Part shown: positions 6,014 to 8,964 of the stretch, piece after piece | How the letters are laid out: each line of letters begins with the position of its first letter | Numbering within the stretch: position 1 is the first letter of the stretch | NCBI GenBank assembly: GCA_029260215.1 | Contig: JAJDDQ010000031.1 | Location: 214,854-278,853, forward strand | Direction: 5' to 3' | Source: Phycisphaerae bacterium | GTDB lineage: Bacteria > Planctomycetota > Phycisphaerae > UBA1845 | Length of the DNA: 64,000 bases | Notes under the pieces: model-generated | Told to the model about the DNA's origin: nothing | What the model saw: the letters and a program-made list of their open reading frames with translations, nothing else | Databases searched by the model: none | Made by a program: the position numbers and the translations under genes

Positions 6014-6276
6014 AGACCTGCGGGGAATCGTGTGTCGCAGCATTCTCGGACGTTTGCCACATCGCTTTCGCGTGTTCTTTGGCGCACTTGTTTCACCCAT
6101 GCGGCAAATACCCCACTTGCTCGCGTCGTATCGCACACAGCGGCTGGTTTGCCATGCTGTCCAAGGGGGTTTGGTTGGCCGACGATTGTGGCACACCGCG
6201 TGCCTTGAAAATGGGGGATGCGTGCGTGGAAGGTGCGCTCTTCTGTCCCTCGGGGTTCCAGTAAGAGGAGGAAAAG
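6014..6276. other. Intergenic leader before the multicopper oxidase
   Basis: Overlapping short ORFs on both strands have no recognisable features. A strong ribosome site (AGAGGAGG) at its right end belongs to the next gene. I see no terminator with a U-tract. Confidence 0.4.
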
Positions 6277-8964
6277 ATGTCCGTCCGGTTCCCTAAGTGC
6301 CTGATGACCAGAACGAGAATCGTTTTTGCCTTGTCGGCGGCTCTGCTTGTCGCGGGGTCAGTGCGGGCGCCCGCCGACGTAGTCGAAGTCGCGGCGAGCC
6401 GGGATAATACTGTTTATTCCGAATCTGACGACAAAAGCAACGGTATGGGCGATTACTTTTTCTCCGGCACGAACGGAACCGGCAACTTGAAGCGGGGGCT
6501 GATCGCGTTCGATATTGCCGGCGCTGTACCCGCCGGCTCGACGATCAACAGCGCCACGCTTCAACTGTACATGTCCCGCACCTCAAGTGGATCCCAAAAC
6601 CTCTCCATCCATCGCGTTTTGAGTGATTGGGGCGAGGGCGCTTCCGATGCCCCCGGGCAGGAGGGTGGCGGAGCAAGCGCAGCCGCAGGGGACGCAACGT
6701 GGCGATACAGGTTTTACGACACGAACAAACCGACAAGCGCCCCTCAGTGGAGCACCCTGGGCGGAGACTTCAGCGCTGCGGCCAGCGCCACCGCGAGCAT
6801 CGGGGGTGTCGGCCCGTACACATGGGCAACGAATCCGAGCGTTGTGGCCGACGTTCAGGCCTGGCTTGATGTGCCGGCGGGCGATTTCGGATGGATCGTC
6901 GTCGGTAATGAGGGGCCTTCCACGACCACCAAACGCTTCAACTCCCGGACCAGCTCAGACGTGAGTCGCCAGCCGAAACTGGTCGTGGATTTCACGCCGA
7001 CGTCCGCCGACGGAGCGTGCTGTTTTGACAATGGCAGTTGCATGATTCTGACGACATCCAATTGCTCGACCCAATCCGGTCAGTACCAGGGCAACGGTAC
7101 GGTTTGCATACCGAACTCCTGCCCGCAACCCGGAGCCTGCTGCCTGCTTGATGGTACATGCGGAAACCTGCTCCAATCCGATTGTCTGGGTCAGTCCGGG
7201 TCGTTTCAGGGCGAGACCACTGTTTGCGACCTGGCGATTTGCCAGGGGGCATGCTGTTTCGACAACGGGACGTGCCAGCCGTTGTTCGTGAACGGTTGTG
7301 CGAGTCAGGCGGGCGCGTTTCAGGGAGCGGGCGTGGCCTGTGTGACCGACCTTTGTCCGGTCGTGCTGACGCCGTACCTTGATGCTCTGCCTCTCCCTGC
7401 TGTCGCGCAGCCGGTGTCCGGTGTGCCCGGCGGAGCGGCTGACTATCAGATCGCCATACGCGAATTCGATCAGCAACTACACACCGATCTGCCGCCGACG
7501 CGTGTGTGGGGATACGATGATGGAGGCGGCCCGACCTTTCCCGGCCCGACTTTCGAGGCTGCCAGCGGCGCGCCCATTTCGGTGACGTGGCTTAACGATC
7601 TGCGTGACGATCAGAACAACCCGCGTGTGGACCATTACCTCAGCGTCGATCTGTGCCCGCATGGTGCGGCCAACGTCGCGAAGACGGTTGTACATCTGCA
7701 CGGCGGGCACATTCCCGCGAACGTCGATGGCTATCCGGAGGACACTTTTCTGCCGCTCGAATCCGTAGTCTACAATTATCCGAATAATCAACCGGCTGCG
7801 ACGTTGTGGTACCACGATCATGCGCTGGGCATAACCCGTTTGAACGTTTACATGGGGCTGGCTGGGTTCTATCTGATACGCGACACGGACGAGGCTGCAC
7901 TGAACTTGCCGAGCGGCGAGTTCGAGATTCCCCTGGTCATTCAGGACCGCAGCTTCAACAGCGACGGCACGTGGAAATACCCAGCCACCTGGCAGGACCA
8001 TTTCTTCGGCGACACCATCCTGGTGAACGGCAAGGTTTGGCCTTTCCTGAACGTCAAGCAGGGCAAGTACCGGTTCCGATTGCTCAACGGGTCCAACTCG
8101 CGCGCGTACACGCTGTCGCTGTCCGACGGAGCGACTCTTGATCAGATCGGATCGGACGGCGGCCTTCTTTCGGCCCCGGTTCCGTTGACTCAGATCACCT
8201 TCGCACCTGGAGAGCGGGCTGACATTGTGGTGGACTTCTCGTCCTACGCACCCGGGACGGAGCTTATTTTGACGAACAGCGCGCCTGCGCCCTTCCCGGG
8301 GTCGCCGGGCGTTGGTGTGATTCCGGAGATCATGAAGTTCGTCGTGACAGCCGACGCGGGGTTTTCAACCGCTCTGCCGGTTCGGTTGCGTACGCTGGAG
8401 ATGCTTGACGAACTGAACGCGGTCGAGTTTCGAGACTTCGAGCTTCGCAAATCGTCCGAGCCTTGTTCCGGCGAAGCGTGGCTTATCAACGGGCTGGCGT
8501 GGGATGACATTACCGAGTTTCCGGTACTGGGTTCGACCGAGGTTTGGAGCTTCATCAACCGCTCCGGCATCACACATCCGATGCACATGCACCTCGTCTT
8601 TTTCCAGATCATTGATCGCCAGAACTTCGATGTAGTGAACGATCAAGTCGTGCCCATCGGTGTTCCCGTTCCGCCGTCCGACGAGGAAGCCGGCTGGAAA
8701 GACACCGTCATGGTTCATCCGCAAGAGATCGTGCGCGTGATCGCGCGGTTCGAGGACTATACGGGCAAGTTTGCGTACCATTGTCACATCCTCGAACACG
8801 AGGATCATGAAATGATGCGCCAGTTTCAGGTCGTGGGCGATCCTATACCGACGGCTTCAACGTGGGGCTTGATTGTTATGGTGATGCTGTTGCTGACGGC
8901 TGGCACGGTTGTCTTTCGACATCGTGTGCATATGAATGCGCGTGGTCGGGGCGTTGTTCGTTAG
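6277..8964 (+). CDS. Chimeric secreted multicopper oxidase: DNRLRE + Cys-rich repeats + cupredoxins + CTERM anchor
   Basis: 895 residues; ATG preceded by AGAGGAGGAAAAG. A signal peptide (about 1-34) is followed by a DNRLRE-like beta-sandwich (about 35-240; LKRGLIAFDIAGAVPAGSTI, LQLYMS). Next come three Cys-rich repeats of about 40 residues (about 247-365; each opens GACC and ends near TVC/VAC). The C-terminal half (about 370-850) is a CotA/bilirubin-oxidase-like multicopper oxidase with all four copper motifs: HLHGGH, WYHDHALGITRLN, HPMHMH and YHCHILEHEDHEMM, so type 1, 2 and 3 copper sites look intact. It ends with IPTASTWGLIVMVMLLLTAG plus RHR, an IPTL-CTERM-like anchor. It should oxidise a phenolic, pigment or metal substrate with O2 at the cell surface; the substrate cannot be read from sequence. 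The architecture is unusual for this enzyme class. Confidence 0.92.
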   Translation: MSVRFPKCLMTRTRIVFALSAALLVAGSVRAPADVVEVAASRDNTVYSESDDKSNGMGDYFFSGTNGTGNLKRGLIAFDIAGAVPAGSTINSATLQLYMSRTSSGSQNLSIHRVLSDWGEGASDAPGQEGGGASAAAGDATWRYRFYDTNKPTSAPQWSTLGGDFSAAASATASIGGVGPYTWATNPSVVADVQAWLDVPAGDFGWIVVGNEGPSTTTKRFNSRTSSDVSRQPKLVVDFTPTSADGACCFDNGSCMILTTSNCSTQSGQYQGNGTVCIPNSCPQPGACCLLDGTCGNLLQSDCLGQSGSFQGETTVCDLAICQGACCFDNGTCQPLFVNGCASQAGAFQGAGVACVTDLCPVVLTPYLDALPLPAVAQPVSGVPGGAADYQIAIREFDQQLHTDLPPTRVWGYDDGGGPTFPGPTFEAASGAPISVTWLNDLRDDQNNPRVDHYLSVDLCPHGAANVAKTVVHLHGGHIPANVDGYPEDTFLPLESVVYNYPNNQPAATLWYHDHALGITRLNVYMGLAGFYLIRDTDEAALNLPSGEFEIPLVIQDRSFNSDGTWKYPATWQDHFFGDTILVNGKVWPFLNVKQGKYRFRLLNGSNSRAYTLSLSDGATLDQIGSDGGLLSAPVPLTQITFAPGERADIVVDFSSYAPGTELILTNSAPAPFPGSPGVGVIPEIMKFVVTADAGFSTALPVRLRTLEMLDELNAVEFRDFELRKSSEPCSGEAWLINGLAWDDITEFPVLGSTEVWSFINRSGITHPMHMHLVFFQIIDRQNFDVVNDQVVPIGVPVPPSDEEAGWKDTVMVHPQEIVRVIARFEDYTGKFAYHCHILEHEDHEMMRQFQVVGDPIPTASTWGLIVMVMLLLTAGTVVFRHRVHMNARGRGVVR

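Follow-up and report, generated by a model that had tools for sequence, protein, structure and literature searches.

Gene and domain organization

The window analysed here is a stretch of 64,000 nucleotides from contig JAJDDQ010000031.1 of a Phycisphaerae bacterium (assembly GCA_029260215.1). A single intact gene on its forward strand, at positions 6277-8964 with an ATG at 6277 and a stop codon at 8962-8964, encodes a protein of 895 amino acids with the following features.

6265-6271, + strand: ribosome-binding site GAGGAGG, read from the sequence
6277-8964, + strand: whole gene, 895 amino acids plus stop, exact ORF coordinates
6277-6375, + strand: Sec-type signal peptide, residues 1-33, with probable cleavage at APA|D, read from the sequence
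6376-6999, + strand: DNRLRE/CBM96-like beta-sandwich, residues 34-241, from profile scans and predicted fold
7012-7122, + strand: GACC repeat 1, residues 246-282, from the sequence pattern
7132-7242, + strand: GACC repeat 2, residues 286-322, an extra copy relative to most homologues, from pattern and alignment
7246-7356, + strand: GACC repeat 3, residues 324-360, from pattern and alignment
7366-8835, + strand: CotA-type multicopper oxidase, residues 364-853, from profile, sequence and fold matches
7693-7710, + strand: copper motif HLHGGH (H473, H475), from alignment
7813-7821, + strand: copper motif HDH (H513, H515), from alignment
8575-8592, + strand: copper motif HPMHMH (H767, H770, H772), from alignment
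8779-8814, + strand: copper motif HCHILEHEDHEM (H835, C836, H837, H841 and axial M846), from alignment
8842-8961, + strand: IPTL-CTERM-like tail (IPTASTWG, hydrophobic helix, basic end), residues 856-895, from borderline profile scans and the structure model

The initial annotation, which had described one ORF combining a signal peptide, a DNRLRE domain, three Cys repeats, an oxidase and an IPTL-like tail, was confirmed by profiles, fold and alignment. The predicted structure of the whole chain reached a pLDDT of 86.9 and a pTM of 0.64, with low confidence for residues 1-30 (the signal peptide region) and a pLDDT below 50 for residues 286-320; the relative placing of the domains in this model is uncertain.

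The gene lies among rpsT and genes for an FtsJ-like methyltransferase, YebC and TPR proteins, and no operon is suggested by these window neighbours. Elsewhere in the window, an ORF at 81-1019, which is either cut by the window start or has a late start, contains HEIGHALGLEHS, the zinc motif of metzincin-type metalloproteases, together with acidic repeats typical of calcium-binding regions. The ORF at 1406-2719 encodes a secreted protein of 437 amino acids with a clear IPTL-CTERM tail (IPTVSEWG) that scored above the TIGR04174 cut-off.

The oxidase domain

In a sequence search of solved structures, residues 364-853 matched CotA (1gsk) with an E value of 4.3e-119, and the predicted oxidase fold matched the same enzyme with a TM score of 0.90 by target, CotA being the nearest solved structure by both sequence and fold. 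The earlier claim of a complete CotA-like oxidase with all four copper motifs was borne out, with 12 of 12 ligands present: the T1, T2 and T3 ligands H473, H475, H513, H515, H767, H770, H772, H835, C836, H837, H841 and axial M846 were invariant in 50 aligned sequences. Judged from its sequence, the domain is a CotA-type oxidase and a predicted laccase or metallo-oxidase.

No second PF00394 multicopper oxidase was found in the genome, a point in favour of a copper-detoxification oxidase like CueO or CopA. However, the CueO and CopA models gave scores far below their cut-offs (215.9 versus 525 and 48 versus 479, respectively), the best kin is CotA, and copper-export genes were absent among the neighbours in the window and at homologous loci; a detoxification role was thus rejected as very improbable.

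The DNRLRE domain and the GACC repeats

Ahead of the CotA-type oxidase, the N-terminal domain was recognized by the DNRLRE profile NF033679 (60.6 bits versus a cut-off of 34) and by the CBM96 profile PF24517 (27.7 bits versus a cut-off of 26). A model of residues 33-362 (pLDDT 83.7) gave as its best fold match the chondroitin-sulfate-binding module 8wab (E value 1.8e-6), and the alginate-binding founder of CBM96, 7vbo, was also matched (E value 2.2e-5, TM score 0.70 by target). When the DNRLRE part was searched against PDB sequences, only chance matches appeared, to viral capsid chains at an E value of about 0.03. The CBM96 domain has been tied to NF033679 by its own authors (PMC9971899). Because of the fold matches and this link, polysaccharide binding is the best inference for the domain, which probably grips polysaccharide, as far as profiles and predicted fold can tell, and more likely serves as a carbohydrate-binding module than as a neutral part of a stalk.

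The three GACC repeats are of 37 residues each and follow the pattern GACC-x5-C-x7-C-x13-C-x4-C. None was covered by any Pfam or NCBIfam model in scans of the protein, and the repeat is a candidate for an undescribed repeat family. Most oxidases of the fused family have two copies and the protein at 6277-8964 has three, the middle one having no counterpart in the homologues of the alignment shown. The repeat was matched 22 times elsewhere in the same genome, several times in long proteins, and occurs in many relatives too.

Distribution of the fused architecture

A genome search gave 80 loci, and the order from signal peptide to oxidase was kept in most of the best ones. The 49 homologues that were aligned with the protein have the common domain order at 48-61% identity, and matches of 58-59% identity over about 840 residues were found among homologues of this order. 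The full architecture was present in 22 of 100 genomes (the window's own and its relatives, own included), while the repeat-oxidase junction was matched in only four of 392 genomes drawn evenly from the phylum, including the window's own and one without most of the repeat part. These counts and the aligned homologues together indicate a genuine architecture that is most frequent in the window's order and sporadic elsewhere. The initial annotation had left room for its absence from every related genome, which is refuted by its recurrence in relatives. An assembly join of two genes, raised in the same place, was ruled out by the 49 aligned homologues; independent assemblies have identical junctions, no point was found in favour of a join, and its probability is negligible.

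The architecture was also found in metagenome-assembled genomes (MAGs) labelled Myxococcota, Acidobacteriota, Gemmatimonadota, Eiseniibacteriota, Verrucomicrobiota and Bacteroidota, taxonomic labels that can be wrong. In the Myxococcota MAGs the oxidases bear tails typical of Myxococcota, which speaks for true hosts. The record L061, named Leptolyngbya sp. PLA1, is near-identical to the Phycisphaerales MAG L025 in both domains and is probably a mislabelled planctomycete. One Sedimentisphaerales MAG contains five such oxidases without GACC repeats (L053-L057), and for four of these the open frame runs to 2252-2863 codons and includes a long stretch of repetitive sequence on the C-terminal side.

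The fused architecture is therefore a recurring family across several phyla and not a one-off. No description of a fused multicopper oxidase and DNRLRE architecture was found in the literature searched, most subscription papers being outside the search, and the fused oxidase is a real, and apparently undescribed, variant of a well-known enzyme class.

A sub-group with a fused cupredoxin domain

In nine homologues (L033, L038-L041, L044, L048, L052 and L059) a GACC repeat lies on both sides of the DNRLRE domain. A complete plastocyanin-like domain, missed by Pfam, precedes the DNRLRE domain in eight of them (L033, L039, L040, L041, L044, L048, L052 and L059); the L038 frame shows none, and eight homologues are therefore counted as having it. 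The ligands H41, C78, H81 and M93 are invariant in these eight, and the domain matches plastocyanin and amicyanin; its presence hints that these oxidases are able to take electrons via a blue-copper partner. The fused domain with its invariant ligands would fit an oxidase on the outside that receives electrons from small blue-copper proteins and acts as the end point of extracellular electron transfer. For the protein at 6277-8964 this role is quite unlikely, as it has no cupredoxin domain in Pfam and NCBIfam scans and no cytochrome or cupredoxin neighbour in the window.

The C-terminal tail and its exchange

The tail gave a borderline score with the IPTL-CTERM profile, 17.9 bits versus a cut-off of 20.8 in one scan and 22.6 bits, above the cut-off, in the genome scan; TIGR04174 was not reported for the protein in the NCBIfam scan. 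Signal peptide, motif, helix (residues 860-871 in the model) and basic end stand in the expected order. About 17 IPTL proteins, the one at 1406-2719 among them, scored above the cut-off in the same genome, which also encodes an XrtH-family exosortase (TIGR04177, 90.9 bits versus a cut-off of 86) and two weaker homologues. Going by the names of the curated models, we take XrtH to be the enzyme that serves IPTL-CTERM; a literature search found no paper on an exosortase with IPTL-CTERM or XrtH. The initial annotation had proposed an IPTL-CTERM-like anchor and surface display. Export and retention at the surface or in the matrix are supported, but the fixed anchor is not, the tail being most likely a sorting tag that would be cut by an exosortase.

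Several tail types occur in the family, and their labels were given mostly by eye from the sequence, with profile support for the scanned examples only, some of them below the cut-off. IPTL tails are found in the protein at 6277-8964, L002 and L070 (degenerate in L014), PEP-CTERM-like tails in L016, L022 and L027, MYXO-CTERM-like tails in L020, L021, L024 and L026, dockerin-like tails in most Phycisphaerae homologues, FlgD/T9SS-like tails in L012 and L033, and other types in further homologues. In a quick oxidase-domain tree, all DNRLRE/GACC proteins cluster together with the GACC-free Sedimentisphaerales proteins at 99% support, separate from Bacillota CotA, and at least 13 changes of tail class are required. 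Distances of the DNRLRE and oxidase domains were correlated (Spearman 0.42, Mantel p 0.001). Tree, tail changes and distance correlation together indicate that the core has been passed on as one unit, separately from the tail, which is inherited as a module of its own. Since one core bears PEP-CTERM, MYXO-CTERM, dockerin-like or T9SS/FlgD-like tails in relatives, the sorting modules have been swapped by lineage. IPTL-rich genomes were seen for four of four IPTL-tailed oxidases versus four of 18 with other tails (p 0.0096, uncorrected for kinship). Because several systems carry one and the same passenger, the tail swaps offer a ready-made set of test cases for signals of C-terminal sorting.

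Proposed role and alternatives

On balance, we regard the protein as an exported CotA-type laccase or metallo-oxidase that is held outside the cell, with the extracellular polysaccharide matrix as its most likely place; this reading is probable. The anatomy of the protein gives good support for export, predicted copper catalysis and retention at the surface or in the matrix, and polysaccharide binding, tail processing, final location, the role of the repeats and the substrate are inferred. The oxidase would be exported by Sec and loaded with copper outside the cytoplasm, after which an XrtH-type exosortase might cut off the IPTL tail and pass the protein outward. The CBM96-like domain may then hold acidic polysaccharide, with the disulfide-rich GACC repeats as a putative spacer protecting or orienting the oxidase. 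The T1 copper would accept electrons one at a time from a reductant outside the cell, and O2 would be reduced to water at the T2/T3 cluster. Phenolic or humic compounds and Mn(II) have roughly equal odds as the presumed substrate. Against the matrix-held oxidase stand the borderline tail score, the alginate-binding residues of the CBM96 founder that could not be mapped onto the domain, and neighbour scans that gave no operon or partner indicating a substrate, and we also count against it the dockerin-like tails of most homologues, which are putative sorting signals.

No conserved gene neighbourhood was found, and in a Pfam scan covering 96 neighbours no family was shared by more than three. 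The sole recurrent neighbour is a stand-alone DNRLRE gene, which adjoins the oxidase gene in either orientation at 10 of 54 loci (L007, L013, L016, L017, L021, L022, L023, L026, L027 and L028). The L013 protein, the one that was scanned, has a PEP-CTERM tail above the cut-off. Stand-alone DNRLRE domains did not pair with the fused domain of their own locus on a quick tree and so do not stem from recent splits. This neighbour might suit an enzyme of matrix cross-linking or maturation that, in the manner of CotA in the spore coat, oxidises tyrosines or phenolic groups in matrix proteins, and the kinship with CotA by sequence and fold, together with a sugar-binding domain and sorting tail that would put the oxidase in the matrix, is consistent with such a role. 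We consider it unlikely, as the DNRLRE neighbour is found in a minority of loci and is absent in the window, and no pigment or cross-linked product is known.

Extracellular Mn(II) oxidation, with Mn(II) converted to Mn(III/IV) and the oxide kept in the biofilm by the sugar-binding domain, is a possible role, although a somewhat unlikely one. CotA is the nearest characterised family and includes a Bacillus pumilus enzyme with Mn-oxidase activity, as cited in PMC10732223. Several homologues come from the Mn-oxide-rich tunnel biofilm of the Oslofjord study (PMC10732223), whose authors used cotA as one of their queries and called manganese oxidases in 15 of the 29 MAGs of Planctomycetota, so that a Mn role has in effect already been suggested by homology for such genes. 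However, homology is the sole basis of this assignment, CotA enzymes are laccases of broad range, and the text of PMC10732223 does not connect its Mn-oxidase call with the protein at 6277-8964.

Beyond the matrix-held oxidase that we favour, a wider reading is tentative and rather doubtful: a matrix-bound oxidase family across phyla, whose core of sugar-binding domain, Cys-rich repeats, CotA oxidase and at times a built-in blue-copper electron relay would be docked onto the host's surface-sorting system and, in the biofilms of planctomycetes, would drive the oxidation of Mn or phenols outside the cell. Some metal-rich biofilms contain abundant Planctomycetota (PMC10732223). No characterised planctomycete Mn or phenol oxidase was found in a literature search. 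The fused family provides a specific, conserved and expressible candidate for such an enzyme, with a predicted location.

Comparison with known systems

The oxidase resembles the CotA laccase/bilirubin oxidase of Bacillus (PDB 1gsk, 7z5p) in about 41% identity, a TM score of 0.90 and all copper ligands including the axial Met. The equivalents of CotA D116 and E498 are D484 and E842, both invariant in the alignment. Two CotA loops are shorter in the planctomycete oxidase, and the cysteine pair Cys229-Cys322 of CotA is missing in the alignment. Unlike CotA, the protein has a sugar-binding domain, Cys repeats and a sorting tail.

The CBM96 alginate-binding module of Dp0100 (PDB 7VBO, PMC9971899) and the DNRLRE domain share a beta-sandwich fold, whereas their identity is only about 19%, at which the alginate-binding residues of the founder could not be mapped, and the partner is a lyase in Dp0100 and an oxidase here.

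PEP-CTERM/exosortase sorting (PMC1569441) is similar in its signal peptide, short C-terminal motif, helix, basic end, exosortase gene and single-gene context, whereas the tail described here is of the IPTL type with a borderline score. As in MYXO-CTERM/myxosortase sorting (PMC11980579), the Myxococcota versions (L020, L021, L024 and L026) end in a Cys-containing motif, a helix and an Arg-rich end, in place of which the protein at 6277-8964 has its IPTL-like tail.
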